This document shows, one piece after another, positions 3,065 through 27,528 of a stretch of DNA of 27,528 nucleotides. The notes below the pieces were generated by a model. It saw only the letters and a program-made list of their open reading frames with translations, searched no databases and was not told the DNA's origin. Numbering within the stretch: the stretch's first letter is position 1; each line of letters begins with the position of its first letter. The DNA comes from a virus, in IMG/VR virus record IMGVR_UViG_3300025769_000659, positions 1 through 27,528 of that record; one strand, given 5' to 3'. Both the position numbers and the translations under genes were made by a program.

Positions 3065-3357
3065 TATCCTCTATATCCACCACCTGCTTTTTTGTAGGCT
3101 GATGCGACCATTTGTGCTTTTCTGGCTGACCATTGACCGGGAGCACCCCCCTTACCACCTGCTTTGATACGATTGAATATGTTCTTACGCATTGTAGGTT
3201 TGGTATAATTCCCTGCAGCATTGACTGTGCTTCCACCCTTGTTTAGTTTTAAAGCTGATAAAGTTTTAGCTTGACCTGCATGTGCCTTACTAGCTTTCTT
3301 TAATTTACTTACTACTTTTTTTATTACTTTTTTTGCTTTTGGTTTCGCTGTTCGCAT
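3064..3357 (-). CDS. Conserved basic protein with WSARKAQ...GGGY C-terminus
   Basis: 97 residues from ATG 3357, which has GAGG eight bases upstream; an in-frame ATG at 3369 lacks an RBS. The N-terminal 30 residues are lysine-rich. The conserved half reads NAAGNYTKPTMRKNIFNR, then KAGGKGGAPGQWSARKAQ and AYKKAGGGYRG. This C-terminal module recurs in small phage and bacterial proteins; I believe it carries a DUF number (possibly DUF6321), but I am not certain. Function is unknown. The first 53 bases overlap the 236-residue gene upstream. Confidence 0.7.
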   Translation of the reverse strand: MRTAKPKAKKVIKKVVSKLKKASKAHAGQAKTLSALKLNKGGSTVNAAGNYTKPTMRKNIFNRIKAGGKGGAPGQWSARKAQMVASAYKKAGGGYRG

Positions 3358-4015
3358 CTCTATCCTCATATAGATTATTAAACGTAGTGAATGGGTCTAA
3401 GTAAGATTCATGTGATTCTGCCGAGTGTGTCCACTGTGATGGTGCAAAGTCAGGTGCTCCTTCTCCTGTAACCCACAGAGCAGGACTTGTAGCTCTTACT
3501 CTGTTATTTGGCAGTGCAACAATGTTGCCTGTCCATTTTCCTGCATCCAACAAGTACATCACGTGTGACTGTTTATGCTGTGCAGGGTCATCTGCTATGT
3601 CACTGTCTGTATAGTCAACAGTAAACATATACTTAGCTGTGTAGAACTCATTGCCTATCTTACATAACCACGGACTAGAACTAACTCTGTCCATCACTAT
3701 GACACTATGGTTTCTTGATTCACAATCCCAAGGTTGACATAAGTGGTCTTCCATTGGCTCTGCCCATTCATCTACAGGTATGTCGGCTACAAGTGCTTGT
3801 ATTGGCATCCTTGCCCACATTGCACCACCGTGTACATTGTCATCTTCTGTACAACCTGTGAAGACTACCTGAAAACTTAGTGACCTATCAGGTATGGTAT
3901 TAACTGCGAAAGCTAGTGCGTGTAGGTATTCACCGTGATAATTCATATGATTACAAGTGAACTCCTTACGTACCCAACATTTAAAATGTGGTACGTTACT
4001 TATAAGATATGACAT
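3305..4015 (-). CDS. Conserved hypothetical late protein, 236 residues
   Basis: The largest folded-looking product among the small late genes here. It opens MSYLISNVPHFKCWVRKEF, has aromatic and Cys residues throughout (Cys13, 20 and 55 among others), mixed beta-type segments, and a low-complexity Ser/Lys tail (SETKSKKSNKKSSK). The opening and the internal FTGCTEDDNVHGGAMWARMP region resemble a protein seen in cyanophages and pelagiphages near the packaging/late genes. I know no assigned function, and no enzyme motif is visible. Its ATG overlaps the stop of the preceding 41-residue gene (TAATG). Confidence 0.8.
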   Translation of the reverse strand: MSYLISNVPHFKCWVRKEFTCNHMNYHGEYLHALAFAVNTIPDRSLSFQVVFTGCTEDDNVHGGAMWARMPIQALVADIPVDEWAEPMEDHLCQPWDCESRNHSVIVMDRVSSSPWLCKIGNEFYTAKYMFTVDYTDSDIADDPAQHKQSHVMYLLDAGKWTGNIVALPNNRVRATSPALWVTGEGAPDFAPSQWTHSAESHESYLDPFTTFNNLYEDRDANSETKSKKSNKKSSK

Positions 4016-9422: not shown

Positions 9423-9782
9423 ATGAAAGCATATTTAATTAATGCCAAAGATGAACTTATAGTTGAGATAGATTGTAAAGGCTATGAGCATAAACAAGAG
9501 TTACTTAACTGTAGAATGTTAGAACTATATCCGTATAACTTAAATGGTAATGACATATGGACAGACGAGGAAGGCAATCTAAAAGAATATAATTATTATG
9601 TTGAGTTAGATAATAAGTATATAGTCAGCGGTAATGCTATTATCCTTAGTTGTGATGATGAAGGTGGTTCTAGCGATGTTAAAGATTTGACTATAGAAGA
9701 ATTAAAGAGTAGAGTTAAATTCTTAGGCAAGAGATATATAGAGCAGAATGGAATGGGATTTAATATAAGGGAGTATCAGTAA
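9423..9782 (+). CDS. DUF3846-like early protein
   Basis: 119 residues from ATG 9423, with GAGG upstream; an in-frame start 18 bases earlier is poorer. The layout (an N-terminal strand MKAYLINAKDELIVEID, a Glu/Asp-rich middle with WTDEEGNLKEYNYY, then IVSGNAIILSCDDEGGSSD) resembles DUF3846, where a conserved 'I.GNAVI...DDEG' ends a small alpha/beta domain. Function is unknown. It is coupled to the methyltransferase gene by a TAATG overlap, so the two are probably co-expressed. Confidence 0.55.
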   Translation: MKAYLINAKDELIVEIDCKGYEHKQELLNCRMLELYPYNLNGNDIWTDEEGNLKEYNYYVELDNKYIVSGNAIILSCDDEGGSSDVKDLTIEELKSRVKFLGKRYIEQNGMGFNIREYQ

Positions 9783-10930
9783 TGAAGTACTATGCGAGTG
9801 AAATAGATAAGTATGCCATAAAGGTAACACAAAATAACTTTCCTAATACATGGCAATTAGGAGATGTTAAAAAGATTGATACATTAATGAATACTAAAGG
9901 CGGTACTGCAACAGTAGATTTATTAGTAGGCGGTTCGCCATGTCAAGATGTTTCATTCGCAGGCTTAGGCAAGGGATTGATTCATGGCGAAAGGTCAAAC
10001 TTATTCTTTGAATATGTTAGGCTATTGAATAAACTTAAACCTAAATACTTCTTACTTGAGAATGTTAGAATGAAACAAGAGTATCAGGATATAATCTCTA
10101 GCGAGTTAGGTGTTAAACCATATATCTATAATAGTGCAGATTGTTCAGCACAAAATAGATTGAGATGGTATTGGACAAACATACCGCAAGATGAATTAAT
10201 CAGACAAGACAATATCGTATTACAAGACATCTTAGAAGATGATGGCATTGCTCACGATTTAATGACCAACAAGGAAGGTAAAGCACATTGTGTAACCGCT
10301 AGGTACAACGGTGCAGTTTGGTGGAACAGTATACAACGTAAGCAGAGAACTATGGTACAAGTAGCAGAAGCTGATACTATCAAAGGTTATGACATCATCA
10401 AAAGAATATATTCCCCTATGGGTAAATCTCCCACATTAACCACTATGCAAGGCGGTCACAGAGAACCTAAAGTTGCAATGGGTAGAATAGTTAATCGTAG
10501 ACTAGACGAGAATGGTACACGAAAAGATAATCAGCTAGACTTACCATTCACTACTAAGCTAGAGGTTAGACAAGATGATAAATCTAATTGTTTAACTACC
10601 GTACAAAAAGATAATGTGGTTACAGATGGTATGAGATGGCGAAAGCTTACACCATTAGAGTGTGAAAGATTACAAGGTGTGCCTGACAATTATACAGATT
10701 GTGTATCAAACAGTCAGCGATACAAGATGCTAGGTAATGGTTTTAATGTTCCTACTATCAAGCACATACTTAAAAACTTACCTGACATACATCACGATTT
10801 TACTACGTTATCACTATTTGATGGCTATAGTGGTTGTCAGATAGCATTACGACAATTACAACAAGAACGAGAAGAGCAGAGAACTACTGAATGGGTAGAA
10901 ATGTATAACAACAACAAGGAGAATGTATAA
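9782..10930 (+). CDS. Cytosine-5 DNA methyltransferase, circularly permuted
   Basis: 382 residues. It transfers a methyl group from S-adenosylmethionine to C5 of cytosine in DNA. The protein starts at motif II (YYASEID, residues 3-9). It continues with QLGDV (25-29), motif IV GGSPCQD with catalytic Cys54, motif VI ENV (93-95) and motif VIII QNRLR (124-128). A target-recognition region (about 135-285) follows, then motif IX (LTPLECERLQG, 289-299) and motif X (LGNGF, 317-321). Motif I, the AdoMet-binding LSLFDGYSG, which should open the protein, is at residues 343-351 near the C-terminus. All motifs are intact and ATG 9782 has its own RBS (GGGAG), so this is a permutation rather than a truncation. 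Likely role: protection from host restriction, as no cognate nuclease is adjacent. Confidence 0.9.
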   Translation: MKYYASEIDKYAIKVTQNNFPNTWQLGDVKKIDTLMNTKGGTATVDLLVGGSPCQDVSFAGLGKGLIHGERSNLFFEYVRLLNKLKPKYFLLENVRMKQEYQDIISSELGVKPYIYNSADCSAQNRLRWYWTNIPQDELIRQDNIVLQDILEDDGIAHDLMTNKEGKAHCVTARYNGAVWWNSIQRKQRTMVQVAEADTIKGYDIIKRIYSPMGKSPTLTTMQGGHREPKVAMGRIVNRRLDENGTRKDNQLDLPFTTKLEVRQDDKSNCLTTVQKDNVVTDGMRWRKLTPLECERLQGVPDNYTDCVSNSQRYKMLGNGFNVPTIKHILKNLPDIHHDFTTLSLFDGYSGCQIALRQLQQEREEQRTTEWVEMYNNNKENV

Positions 10931-14435: not shown

Positions 14436-15671
14436 ATGGAATTAGCACTGATAAGAAGCCTGATGGATAAATCATTTTATGATGACCATCGTGGTTATAA
14501 ATGTCCTGATAGATTGTTTAGTAAGGATGTCAGGAAGATAAAGAAGGTTGTGGATAATGCTATGACAAAGTATAGCAGAGATGTCACACCTGATGAAGTA
14601 GAAGCACTATTTATGTCTAGTAATTTTGGCTTGACAACAGCACAGAAACAGGCATTTGGTGATTTGTTTGTGAAGATAAAGAAGGAGAAACCTCTTGGTG
14701 CAGACATTGCAAGTGATGTTTTGTCTAAGTTATTTCGTCAAATTATTGGTGAAGATATTGCTAACATTGGCTTTGAGTATGTTAATGGCAGTCTATCCTC
14801 ACTTGAACCCATTAGAAATATTATTAGCAAACACAATGATGATTTTCTTCCCATACTAAATGTTGAGTGGGAAGATTTAAGTATAGAAAGTATAATGGCT
14901 AAGAACTCCCTTGAAACACAGTGGGGGTTTAACATACCATCATTAACACGTAAGGTAGAAGGTATAAATGCAGGTCACCTGATAATGGTGGGTGCTAGGT
15001 CAAACACAGGTAAGACATCCTTTCATGCTTCCTTACTAGCAGGACCAAATGGTTTCGCTAGGCAGGGTGCTAAGTGTGTTGTGCTTTGTAATGAAGAAGC
15101 TGCCCACAGAGTTTCCATGCGATACTTGTCTTCTGCAAGTGGATTTAAGAAGGAAGATATTACTGCAAATAAAGATGCAGTATGGAATAGTTGGAAAGAT
15201 TTACGAAAGAATATTAAGATTGTAGATTCTATTGGACAAGACATGTCATGGGTAGAAGCGGTATGTCGTACCTATAATCCTGATGTTGTCGTTGTAGATA
15301 TAGGTGACAAGTTTGCAACACAGGCAGGATTTGCTAGACCTGATGAAGCATTAAAAGCTAATGCAATACACGCAAGAGAGATAGCTAAAAGACATAACTG
15401 TGCTGTGTTTTATATGTCACAGTTGAGTGCAGAAGCAGAAGGTAGAGTACAATTAAATCAAAGTATGATGGAAGGTTCAAAGACAGGTAAAGCATCAGAA
15501 GCTGACCTAATGTTATTGTTAGCAAAGAACCCATCAGAAGGAACAACAGAAGGAGTACAGGAAGGAGAAGATGGTATTAGACACATAGTATTAGCAAAAA
15601 ATAAATTGTCAGGTTGGCATGGTAGAGTTACTTGCGAATTTGATTTTGAAACAGGGAGGTTTGGAGCATGA
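14436..15671 (+). CDS. Replicative DNA helicase (DnaB/T7 gp4B-like)
   Basis: 411 residues with a RecA-like ATPase core. Walker A is GARSNTGKTS (residues 186-195), followed by VVLCNEEAAHRVSMRYLS. Walker B is VVVVDIGDK, with Asp288 close to the acidic end of the strand. The glutamine of FYMSQLSAEAEGR corresponds to motif H3, and an ASEADLMLLLAKN strand plus AKNKLSGWHGRV contain the arginine-finger region. The N-terminal 150 residues are a helical primase/assembly domain. It should form a ring that unwinds DNA ahead of the polymerase. It is directly downstream of the primase; AAAGGAG precedes the start. Confidence 0.88.
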   Translation: MELALIRSLMDKSFYDDHRGYKCPDRLFSKDVRKIKKVVDNAMTKYSRDVTPDEVEALFMSSNFGLTTAQKQAFGDLFVKIKKEKPLGADIASDVLSKLFRQIIGEDIANIGFEYVNGSLSSLEPIRNIISKHNDDFLPILNVEWEDLSIESIMAKNSLETQWGFNIPSLTRKVEGINAGHLIMVGARSNTGKTSFHASLLAGPNGFARQGAKCVVLCNEEAAHRVSMRYLSSASGFKKEDITANKDAVWNSWKDLRKNIKIVDSIGQDMSWVEAVCRTYNPDVVVVDIGDKFATQAGFARPDEALKANAIHAREIAKRHNCAVFYMSQLSAEAEGRVQLNQSMMEGSKTGKASEADLMLLLAKNPSEGTTEGVQEGEDGIRHIVLAKNKLSGWHGRVTCEFDFETGRFGA

Positions 15672-16189
15672 GTATAACAGGTAAAAACATGGAGTTTGAT
15701 GGTAACGAATGGTGGTATAGGTCTCCAAGTGGTCATAGAAGAAGGCTATGGTCAAACATAAAGAAGAATAAAGAACGTATGTTTGTAAATGGTAAGTACA
15801 TAAAGAAATCACATCCTTTGTGGAAAGAAGGTCACTATAAAACATTTGAAGATGCAGCTTTTGCATCATTAAAAAACTATACTAGAAGTAAAGTTGGGGA
15901 AGTATATATAATCAGCAATCCTGTATGGGAAGGTTGGTATAAAATAGGTATGGCAGTTGATGCAGACGATAGGCTTATGGCATATCAAACAAGCTCTCCT
16001 CATAGGGATTATACTATAATACATAAGGTTAAAGTATATAATAGACGAGAAGCAGAGAAGAAAGCACACAGAGAAGCAGAAAAGATTGCAGAAAAATTTA
16101 ATTCTGAATGGTTTTACCTTGACACGCAAGAAGCAATTAGTATACTGAACAAAATAAAAGAGGAGTATACAAATGAAACTAACACTTGA
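15668..16189 (+). CDS. GIY-YIG-superfamily protein (T5orf172/MUG113-like)
   Basis: 173 residues. It starts within the helicase stop (ATGAG). The N-terminal ~75 residues contain WWYRSPSGHRRRLWSNIKKN and are probably DNA-binding. Residues 77-160 read GEVYIISNPVWEGWYKIGMA, DADDRLMAYQTSSPHRDYTI, AEKKAHREAEKIAEKFNSEW, matching the T5orf172/MUG113 branch of the GIY-YIG nuclease fold ('vYi...KIG.t.d...R...'). Endonuclease activity is plausible but unproven. A position between helicase and polymerase could mean a free-standing homing endonuclease or a replication-linked nuclease. Confidence 0.75.
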   Translation: MSITGKNMEFDGNEWWYRSPSGHRRRLWSNIKKNKERMFVNGKYIKKSHPLWKEGHYKTFEDAAFASLKNYTRSKVGEVYIISNPVWEGWYKIGMAVDADDRLMAYQTSSPHRDYTIIHKVKVYNRREAEKKAHREAEKIAEKFNSEWFYLDTQEAISILNKIKEEYTNETNT

Positions 16190-24130: not shown

Positions 24131-27100
24131 CTATTTAATCTCTAAATTTAGTGGATAGTTTTCACCTAGTCTTTTACCTAGTTGCAGTAGCTTGTAATAA
24201 TCATAATCGTTTTTACTTGCTACTGCACCATAGGTTTTTGCGTATGCATTTTTAGCTAATGTCTGTACAGCCTGTGGTAATCTATTAAAATCTAATATAT
24301 CTTTAGGGTAGTTTTTATATTTTTTTGCCATATTGATTCTAGTCTGTTGATTTTTTAGACCTAAACTAATTTCTTGTTTAACTTCTTTTATTATGCCATT
24401 TAATTTATCTCGTTGTCTTTCGTTTTTACTTATAGTAACTTTTTTACCTTCTACAATTAGGTCAATAGATTCTAAATCTTTATAGGCTTTGGAATTTATA
24501 AAAGGTACAATTACTTCTCCTATATAACTATCCATAATGTTACCATACATTTCATCATATTCAGGGTTTTGTGTTCTAGGAAATTTAGAATAACTACGTA
24601 TTTTTAATCTATCCATTTCTGATTCAAATTTATTTTTCTTTTCATTTAATAATAAACCTGCTGTCTGTCTTGTAATTGGAGCAACCCTTCTCATCAATCC
24701 TTCTTTAGTAGAAGATTTTCTATCCTTGGGTGCTTTATAACCTGTGCTGTTACCTATTAACTTTTCTAAGTTTTTTTCTATGGCATTATTAGCAGGAATA
24801 CGTTGTAAACTTCTATTCACAAGAAGACTAAACGCATCTTTTTTATTCATATCTTTAACTACTCTTTCACTATCAGGTGCTAAAAAAGTATTATATAAGT
24901 CTTGAGCAGATGTTATAGGTATGGTAAAGGTACTAAATAAATTACCAAAGTATTCTGCACCCATAACTTCAAATTTATCAGATATATCTAAATCATTATT
25001 TGTCAAATCATCAAAGGCTTTTTCTAAAGCATATACACCTAAACCTGCTTTGAATTGTGCTCCTGTCAATGCTTGTATAGCAGACGTAAAAGTATCTCTG
25101 TTTTTAAATACAGGTTCATCTTTCATAAGCCTAGCAGCTATATCGCCAAAGAATAAAAAAGGTGCTGCAGGAAAGAAAGGTCGTAAATCATAAGTCTTAC
25201 CAGACGGTGTTCTGCCTTCGTACCAATTTTCACCTGCATGTTCTGACATTCTAAATGCAGTTGCTCCTGCAAACATACCTGTTCCTACTAAACCTTTTGC
25301 AGCATTGTTGTAAGAAGTTATCAATTCATCCTTCTGCATACCTATTATGGATTTACCCACATTAAGTATTTCTCCTCTAGCTTGTTTATTCGTCATTAAA
25401 AATACAGGAGAATACTCATACGTATATCTCATTGCGTTCATCATAAAACGTGGGAAGGGAGCTAATGCTGTTCCAACAAAAGGAGCAGAATGTATACCAG
25501 ATATAATACTTCTAGCTAAAGCACTATCTGGAGTTTTCTGATAGGTAAAGTACAATGTGTCCTCTACAATTCTATCTAATGCTTCTCTACCTTGTTTAGA
25601 TGCAAAAGTATCATTGAATCTACCATTCTTTATTATTTTAATTAAATCAAAATCTGATTCATTTATGTCTTTACCACTAATTTTTTTATAAGCAGCTGGG
25701 TCTTTCATAGCTTGTGTGTACATAGTATTTAATTCACGTTTAAGATTGCCAACAAAAGCTGCTCTTTTAAACATGTTATCTGATATAGTGTTTAATGCAT
25801 TTAGTTGTCTTGACGCTTTTTCTAATCTGCCTACTTTATGATTACCACCTCTAGCACCTGTCGCATCAGCAATGTCTGCTAGTTGTTTAAACATACGACC
25901 TGCTTTATCTTGAAAGCCTTTTTCAAATATTTGTTCTACTAAAGCTGCTTCTTTTTTATTTGTTAATCCATATGCTATAGACCACACATCAGAATTAGGA
26001 CCTAGTTTTGCAGTGCCTGTTACTTTAGCTAAAGCATTGTCTAAACTTTGTGTAAGTATATCCATACCAACACGTGAATAACCAGATGCTACGTTTCTAA
26101 AAGTGGTAGCAGTTTGTGATGTCATAAAAGCTAATCGAGCAGCATCAGCTTTTCTCAATCCACTTAACTCTTCTCCTGAAGTTTCTAAATACTTTCTTAC
26201 ATCTCCCTCATCAACAGCTTTTGATAATTTAGCAGACATATCTTTCATTTCTTTACTAAAACCAAAAACGTCAAAAGAAGCTACATCATTTAATGCGTGA
26301 TTAAAGCCACGCATACTAGCCAAAAAAGCTTTTTTAGACTGTCCTGCTGCTTGTAAAATTCTACCAGCATCAGATAAGTCTGCCATAAAAATATCACCTA
26401 AATCATCGTAGGTAATATCATACTTCTTCATTAATGTTCCGAATTGCTCTTCTATTTTTGTAGTGGCTTTAGTTGCTCCTTTAACATTACCTTTACCTAT
26501 TTGTCTAGTGACCCTAGCTAGTGCTTCAGTAATTCTTTCCCCGGGTAATAACCCATCAACTTCACCTAGTAGTTCTGTCAAAGCACCTGCTACCTGTTTG
26601 AATTTTTCTGGTTTTACAGCTAAACGTACAGAAGCATCTAACTCTTCCTTTGTTGCCATCTCTCCTAGCTTTGCTTTACCTGCTTCTACAGATTCCTTGT
26701 TCAATGAGTTTAATGCATCTGTTACAGACTGCCCAAGAACTTTATTTTTATCTAGCATATTGTCTGCGTTTACACTAGCTTGCATTGTTCTTTTAGCTAT
26801 AGCATCTTCACTTTCCTTAACCAAGTCACCTGTATTTTGTTCAATCCTTTTTACTATTTCTTTTCTACCCATTACAAGTGGCACACCTACACTAGCAACA
26901 GATGATACAGCAGTAGCTAAAGCTGTTTGACCAAAACTATAGTCATCTTGAAACCCTGCTTCCATCATAGTACCTTGAGCAGCTATATCTTGTAATGCTC
27001 CACCTGTGCCTTCAATTACGGCAGCAGATTTAAGCGGATTAGTTGCCATAGTAGATAGTAATTTACCAATGCCTAATTTAGATGTCGCTACGGCTGCCTG

Positions 27101-27528
27101 ACCTGCAACTTTACCTCCTGCTGGTATTAATAAAGATAGATAAGTAGATGGTGCAAGTGCTGTACCTACAAAATAATCACCTAATGCAGTCATAGTATCG
27201 CTACCACCTTCTTCAAAAAAAGAAGGCATCTGCTCATAAGCAGAATATAAGTTACGATAATCGTCTAGCTCTTGTTGTTTCTTAGCATTACCTGCTTTTG
27301 CATCTGTTGCTAAACCACTCACGTAGTTATAATCCATACCTGCAAAAACTTCATTTACATTAAATTGTCTAAAGTGTTCTATAAATTCGTCTACAGCTTC
27401 GTCTTCATCTATGTTCTCATGTCCTAGATGATTCTTAGCAAAACGCACTGCTCTAGCTCTCATGTTTGCATCAGACTTGATGCCCTCATAAGTATTCTTT
27501 TTAGGGGGTGTAATAGGAGATGTGGTAG
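24131..27528 (-). CDS. Very large structural protein, probably internal virion protein (5' truncated)
   Basis: The frame is open to the right edge of the window, so the N-terminus is missing; at least 1,132 residues are visible. The sequence at the edge (TTSPITPPKKNTYEGIKSDA) runs into the first internal Met at 27463. The protein is Ala/Lys-rich and largely helical, with several apolar segments (such as DYFVGTALAPSTYLSLLIPA, SVASVGVPLVMG and FVGTALAPFPRFMMNAMRYT) that could interact with membranes. Such very large helical proteins at the end of a structural operon in podoviruses are internal core/ejection proteins that form the DNA channel at infection. No transglycosylase motif was spotted in the visible part. 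Assignment is by size, composition and position. Confidence 0.65.
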   Translation of the reverse strand, partial: TTSPITPPKKNTYEGIKSDANMRARAVRFAKNHLGHENIDEDEAVDEFIEHFRQFNVNEVFAGMDYNYVSGLATDAKAGNAKKQQELDDYRNLYSAYEQMPSFFEEGGSDTMTALGDYFVGTALAPSTYLSLLIPAGGKVAGQAAVATSKLGIGKLLSTMATNPLKSAAVIEGTGGALQDIAAQGTMMEAGFQDDYSFGQTALATAVSSVASVGVPLVMGRKEIVKRIEQNTGDLVKESEDAIAKRTMQASVNADNMLDKNKVLGQSVTDALNSLNKESVEAGKAKLGEMATKEELDASVRLAVKPEKFKQVAGALTELLGEVDGLLPGERITEALARVTRQIGKGNVKGATKATTKIEEQFGTLMKKYDITYDDLGDIFMADLSDAGRILQAAGQSKKAFLASMRGFNHALNDVASFDVFGFSKEMKDMSAKLSKAVDEGDVRKYLETSGEELSGLRKADAARLAFMTSQTATTFRNVASGYSRVGMDILTQSLDNALAKVTGTAKLGPNSDVWSIAYGLTNKKEAALVEQIFEKGFQDKAGRMFKQLADIADATGARGGNHKVGRLEKASRQLNALNTISDNMFKRAAFVGNLKRELNTMYTQAMKDPAAYKKISGKDINESDFDLIKIIKNGRFNDTFASKQGREALDRIVEDTLYFTYQKTPDSALARSIISGIHSAPFVGTALAPFPRFMMNAMRYTYEYSPVFLMTNKQARGEILNVGKSIIGMQKDELITSYNNAAKGLVGTGMFAGATAFRMSEHAGENWYEGRTPSGKTYDLRPFFPAAPFLFFGDIAARLMKDEPVFKNRDTFTSAIQALTGAQFKAGLGVYALEKAFDDLTNNDLDISDKFEVMGAEYFGNLFSTFTIPITSAQDLYNTFLAPDSERVVKDMNKKDAFSLLVNRSLQRIPANNAIEKNLEKLIGNSTGYKAPKDRKSSTKEGLMRRVAPITRQTAGLLLNEKKNKFESEMDRLKIRSYSKFPRTQNPEYDEMYGNIMDSYIGEVIVPFINSKAYKDLESIDLIVEGKKVTISKNERQRDKLNGIIKEVKQEISLGLKNQQTRINMAKKYKNYPKDILDFNRLPQAVQTLAKNAYAKTYGAVASKNDYDYYKLLQLGKRLGENYPLNLEIK

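Follow-up and report, generated by a model that had tools for sequence, protein, structure and literature searches.

A putative circularly permuted C5-cytosine DNA methyltransferase in an HMO-2011-like marine phage, with motif I at the C-terminus

Does a phage gene with all the motifs of a C5-cytosine DNA methyltransferase (C5-MTase), but with motif I read at the wrong end, encode a working permuted enzyme, a fused relic, or an error of assembly? The question was raised by the open reading frame at positions 9782-10930 of a 27.5-kb IMG/VR virus record (IMGVR_UViG_3300025769_000659, positions 1 to 27,528), the whole of which is referred to here as the window. A sequence-only reading had described the frame as a circularly permuted C5-MTase that starts at motif II. 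Motif order, recurrence, codon changes, predicted structure and genomic context were analyzed, and are compared below with permuted enzymes already described.

Family assignment and motif order

The 382-aa product of the frame (9782..10930; plus strand, as for all features of the gene below) was assigned by profile search, with matches to PF00145 (Pfam DNA_methylase; E 2.8e-43, 149 bits against a cut-off of 22) and TIGR00675 dcm (E 2.7e-42, 145.6 bits, above the cut-off of 100.65). Residues 3-333 were aligned with positions 25-322 of the 324 in PF00145, and since the alignment starts at profile position 25, exactly the motif I segment is absent from the N-terminus. The family hallmarks of motif IV (PC), motif VI (ENV), motif VIII (QxRxR) and motif X (GN) were all present, and the FxGxG-type AdoMet loop of motif I was located at residues 343-351, at the C-terminus.

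Motif positions were taken from the protein and from its alignment with 27 relatives. The order along the chain was II, III, IV, VI, VIII, variable region, IX, X and then I, and the translation agreed with the earlier description of a start at motif II followed by IV, VI, VIII, IX and X in normal sequence. Motif II (KYYASEID, residues 2-9, 9785..9808; YYASEID at 3-9) forms the new N-terminus. It is followed by the motif III region (LGDV, residues 26-29, 9857..9868), in which G27 and D28 were nearly invariant, by motif IV (GGSPCQ, residues 50-55, 9929..9946) with the catalytic Cys54, by motif VI (LLENV, residues 91-95, 10052..10066; L92-V95 invariant) and by motif VIII (QNRLRWYW, residues 124-131, 10151..10174). 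A variable region with a putative target recognition domain, delimited by the alignment and by low pLDDT, occupies approximately residues 150-285 (10229..10636). The motif IX region (RKLTPLECERLQGVPDNYT, residues 287-305, 10640..10696), in which motif IX reads RKLTPLECERLQ (residues 287-298), and motif X (KMLGNGFNVPTIKHIL, residues 315-330, 10724..10771; GNGF at 318-321) come next, so that RKLTPLECERLQ..GNGF (IX-X) spans residues 287-321. LENV, GNG and the Q and R of motif VIII were invariant across the alignment, and all catalytic motifs were intact.

Beyond motif X, a new linker (residues 331-341, 10772..10804), the distal part of which differs among relatives, leads to the displaced motif I and the start of alpha-A (TLSLFDGYSGCQIAL, residues 342-356, 10805..10849; motif I core LSLFDGYSG, residues 343-351), placed from profile, selection and prediction. 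The C-terminal tail (residues 357-382, 10850..10927), an extended helix by prediction, varies among relatives, and the stop follows residue 382.

A profile of motif I, alpha-A and beta-2 was built from the N-termini of 66 canonical relatives and searched against the six-frame translation of the window (353 ORFs, minimum length 30 aa). ORF 9782-10930 was the only one matched, with residues 341-359 as motif I (i-Evalue 2.4e-5) and its first residues as motif II, in swapped order; the LSLFDGYSG that had been read after motif X was thus recovered by both translation and profile search. A hidden motif I upstream of the ATG was ruled out, as the profile found none among the window ORFs and an in-frame stop lies only six codons (YKGVSV, 9764..9781) before the ATG, closing the frame to any concealed N-terminal motif I. 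Those codons include the ribosome-binding site GGAG (9770-9773, 8 bases 5' of the ATG), and the ORF shares one base with the upstream gene. The spacing of GVSV-MKYYASEI is that of the canonical loop G-I-K-V-x-K-YYASEI, the G of which is carried by 51 of the 68 canonical relatives; so short a stretch gives only a hint that YKGVSV might be the leftover of a trimmed canonical gene.

At the level of sequence, the reading of ORF 9782-10930 as a putative circularly permuted C5-MTase with a C-terminal motif I is supported. The break had been placed between beta-1/alpha-A and beta-2, and the sequence, the recurrence of the order, purifying selection and a predicted C-terminal strand and helix all bear this out. 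The topology is Type A of Albert et al. 2018 (PMC5944983), the class letter being read from the residue numbers of the engineered permutants cp35 and cp33 and from the wording of class B as 'between II and III' in that paper.

Recurrence in other contigs and selection on motif I

An assembly or rearrangement artefact could have displaced motif I, and every dataset used was a metagenome assembly. IMG/VR contigs from a further four metagenomes (3300025652, 3300007345, 3300017730 and 3300017756) nevertheless have the II..X-I order, and a partial contig from a fifth (3300025138) has only the X-to-I junction. Permuted genes with 99.7-99.8% nucleotide identity to the window gene were found in L006 and L007. 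The permuted gene of L009 came from a different phage (85% nucleotide identity in the MTase gene, 70-82% in other genes) and had synonymous differences across the junction; the L009 contig begins at motif VI, so the N-terminus of its gene is missing, and L088 held the C-terminus with the X-to-I junction only. The window ORF is continuous and has a ribosome-binding site ahead of its new start. Assembly error, which the sequence-only reading had named as one possible refutation of permutation, was essentially refuted by these independent contigs, and an artefact is regarded as having next to no chance of being the explanation.

In L008 (5534-6547) a near-identical permuted MTase (approximately 95% nucleotide identity) is shortened by 44 aa in the variable region (between VN and GM), which suggests a recent change or a partial loss of the target-recognition region.

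Codon changes were compared between the window gene and L009. Among motif I codons 342-353, six had changed, all of them synonymously, whereas the C-terminal flanks had 4 synonymous and 18 non-synonymous changed codons (Fisher p = 0.0006). Because motif I was free of replacement changes while its flanks diverged, it is under selection for its protein sequence, and codons 342-353 are therefore under purifying selection. Whole-gene dN/dS was 0.125 against L009 and 0.036 against L008. The motif reads FDGYSGCQ in the window protein and FDGMSCGQ in relatives, a departure by which AdoMet binding could be altered. A canonical-gene source of this variant was dropped, as a pattern scan for FDGYSGCQ returned no canonical carrier, only the permuted contigs and one unrelated chance match (L100).

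Predicted structure and proposed catalysis

Structure prediction, which had been suggested for the 382-aa product, was run with AlphaFold2 on a 28-row alignment. The model had a pTM of 0.68, and residues 331-370 had pLDDT block means of 81-92, with the C-terminal segment covered by five rows only. A confident C-terminal strand (341-345) and helix (351-377) were obtained and read as beta-1 and alpha-A, while the variable region was poorly modelled (pLDDT < 50, residues 154-227). The best PDB matches with Foldseek were DNMT3A/3B methyltransferase domains (E ~1e-14). From the DSSP strand at 341-345, as a strand needs a partner, and from pLDDT, we infer that the motif I segment lies in the AdoMet pocket.

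In the predicted fold of the permuted enzyme, the old N- and C-termini would be linked from X to I, and the new cut would fall in the alpha-A/beta-2 loop. The folded domain would be normal, with the C-terminal beta-1, FDGYSG loop and alpha-A beside the N-terminal beta-2, completing the AdoMet site. Cys54 would then attack C6 of the flipped cytosine, and the methyl group would be placed on C5. The gene very probably encodes a functional permuted C5-MTase.

Phage, genomic slot and likely role

These window genes run in the order integrase, primase, DnaB helicase, PolA, Cas4-like exonuclease, endonuclease and ribonucleotide reductase. Its PolA was 63.8% identical over the full length to that of Puniceispirillum phage HMO-2011, and the order integrase, primase, DnaB, PolA also occurs in HMO-2011 (GU557055); on gene order and PolA relatedness, the window phage was placed among the HMO-2011-like marine phages. 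The slot MTase-(hydrolase)-integrase-primase-DnaB-PolA was common to phages with canonical MTases. Canonical solitary C5-MTases (contigs L010-L022 and Roseobacter phages CRP-9 and CRP-603) share this slot, those of L010-L022 lying ahead of the hydrolase and integrase, and have at most 60% identity to the window protein over II-X; unlike it, they keep the normal I-X order. Canonical order was found in the other viral relatives (<= 60% identity) with a readable N-terminus. In the window a cell wall hydrolase gene (PF07486, 11136-11567) lies soon after the MTase, and the slot is kept in canonical relatives.

Three other window genes were recorded. A GIY-YIG-type T5orf172/MUG113 gene (15668-16189) lies between DnaB and PolA with overlaps of a few bases with both, and HMO-2011 has no such gene at that position. 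On the minus strand, a 236-aa protein (3305-4015) matched PHROG 3704 'ferredoxin' (auxiliary metabolic category), and a 1110-aa ORF (24131-27463) matched nothing in PHROG or Pfam at E 0.001.

The enzyme would most likely methylate phage DNA at a short sequence recognized by its variable region, and host restriction would thereby be evaded; evasion is probably the main role. A folded permuted enzyme could instead serve chiefly in phage gene regulation, or block host nucleases by binding. Solitary MTases of phages can act as regulators, and no cognate restriction gene was found among the window ORFs examined. The catalytic and AdoMet motifs are however intact and strongly constrained, and related phages commonly carry solitary C5-MTases, so that another main role is thought rather unlikely.

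Other permuted genes, tandem arrays and origin

DNA patterns in which motif X is closely followed by motif I were searched, and each of the five permuted contigs already known for the window lineage was recovered. A search of marine virus proteins for the II-X-I order had been proposed from the sequence; the pattern search also yielded a second Type A lineage of four contigs (L195, L196, L206 and L208), found within the same HMO-2011-like phage group as the window. Open frames of this second lineage were 417-424 codons where complete, with the N-terminus ..NIKYNDYYASELE and the C-terminus VLSLFDGISCGQQALKTTNRSN, and the same end point after alpha-A was kept. In its model the C-terminal VLSLF (400-404) formed a strand and residues 410-416 a short helix, with confidence dropping toward the end. 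In the MTase tree the second lineage grouped with canonical L028/L035/L051 (97/96), apart from the window lineage. A single clade of both Type A lineages was not rejected by the AU test on the MTase tree (p = 0.23). A single clade of Type A phages was rejected for integrase (p = 0.001) and borderline for DnaB (p = 0.05), tests that bear on phage kinship and not directly on the MTase event. Two separate origins of the Type A lineages are favoured, not proved.

In approximately 98 viral loci returned by the same search, motif I leads into motif II with no further motif IV after it, and wherever the 5' end is complete the protein opens with motif IV (MIKLLIGGSPCT..). These IV..X-I-II-III loci correspond to engineered Type C, with the break between III and IV. 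Members of the family are L093 (phage nd4, 1481-3157), L096, L095, which seems frameshifted close to the junction, and the approximately 98 loci among L103-L244, with examples from human-faecal phage scaffolds as well as nd4. The nd4-type proteins (L093, L096) and the 98 or so loci resemble the window protein in being natural permutants from phages and in having an X-to-I junction, but their break is at III/IV and they form a different lineage, whereas the window protein is broken at I/II. The nd4 protein scored 61.9 bits against the TIGR00675 cut-off of 100.65 and is annotated 'hypothetical protein'; as Type C proteins can fall below naming cut-offs in this way, counts of permuted methylases are probably too low.

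In approximately 25 viral contigs, canonical C5-MTase genes stood in tandem, as pairs or three in a row; there a short distance separates motif X of the leading gene from motif I of the gene behind it, at the X-to-I spacing of the permuted gene. Arrays with tiny spacers were noted in L122, L126, L127, L130, L142, L152, L153, L161 and others, and also in L259, L260 and L267. Two metagenome-assembled cellular bins also hold tandem canonical pairs; a scan of cellular contigs gave two loci, both tandem canonical pairs, and no permuted homologue. A search for an HhaI-like motif I after a GNS-type X (one codon choice) gave no permuted MTase and one tandem pair (L267). Permutation by duplication requires an X-to-I junction, and such arrays provide one. 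Most likely, two tandem canonical genes would have fused at the X-to-I junction, after which the first copy would have dropped motif I and the second everything after alpha-A. No fused I-X-I-X intermediate was seen among the contigs examined, including those of the window's phage group.

Tandem pairs with matching X-to-I spacing are common enough in phages that LSLFDG could also be what a second, degraded MTase gene left of its beginning after fusion, in an enzyme that no longer has a motif I of its own and is dead or independent of it; the short, variable tail after alpha-A would fit such a relic. Degradation is hard to square with purifying selection on the motif I codons while both flanks drift, with a whole-gene dN/dS of 0.04-0.13, with a second lineage that has the identical end point after alpha-A, and with a C-terminal segment predicted to be folded, and a relic is accordingly judged very unlikely. 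For the putative permuted enzyme, both Type A lineages, the IV..X-I-II-III family and the tandem arrays make a model of duplication, fusion and truncation testable on natural sequences. Whether natural Type A permutants arose at least twice in HMO-2011-like phages, with the IV..X-I-II-III form common elsewhere and tandem arrays as the living source, is evenly balanced in our estimation; if so, phages are a natural laboratory of permutation by duplication, and the view that natural C5-MTase permutation occurs only in the variable region is contradicted.

Comparison with known permuted methyltransferases

Circular permutants of M.MpeI and M.SssI were engineered by Albert et al. 2018; plasmid DNA was methylated in E. 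coli by both cp35M.MpeI, active in vivo ('++'), and cp33M.SssI, whose plasmid was protected after induction (PMC5944983). Both have the N-terminus between I and II and the old termini joined, giving II..X-I as in the phage gene. Their ends were joined directly (with an LEC tripeptide for M.SssI), whereas the phage gene has a natural linker and a longer helical tail, and its coding region lacks the G-x-x-V loop. The same source gives a 2018 REBASE survey of 27 natural permuted C5-MTases, with every break in the variable region; its authors held that permutation pathways keeping both domains intact are favoured, and suggested for Type B that SAM might be bound less tightly once the AdoMet-binding half is cut (PMC5944983). 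Against the conclusion of that survey, the cut of the window gene separates the first strand of the AdoMet-binding half from the second, and the gene is kept by selection. No published report of natural Type A or Type C permutants was found in the open-access literature searched.

Plant DRM2 likewise runs from motif X straight into motif I, and with phmmer query residues 276-363 were aligned to DRM2 ~160-251 in one stretch. The DRM order is VI-X then I-V, in eukaryotic proteins with other domains, while motifs II, III and IV of the window protein precede VI.

The natural Type H enzymes (M.BssHII, M.Alw26I, M2.Eco31I, M.Esp3I and M2.BsaI) are, like the window protein, single chains with X directly before I. 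The different break point noted earlier for M.BssHII agrees with the published class, which is cut in the variable region (PMC5944983): Type H proteins begin there and run IX-X-I..VIII, whereas the window protein begins at motif II and is broken inside the AdoMet-binding fold. The window gene is thus outside the natural Type H class, and offers a natural case of a topology otherwise known from engineered constructs.
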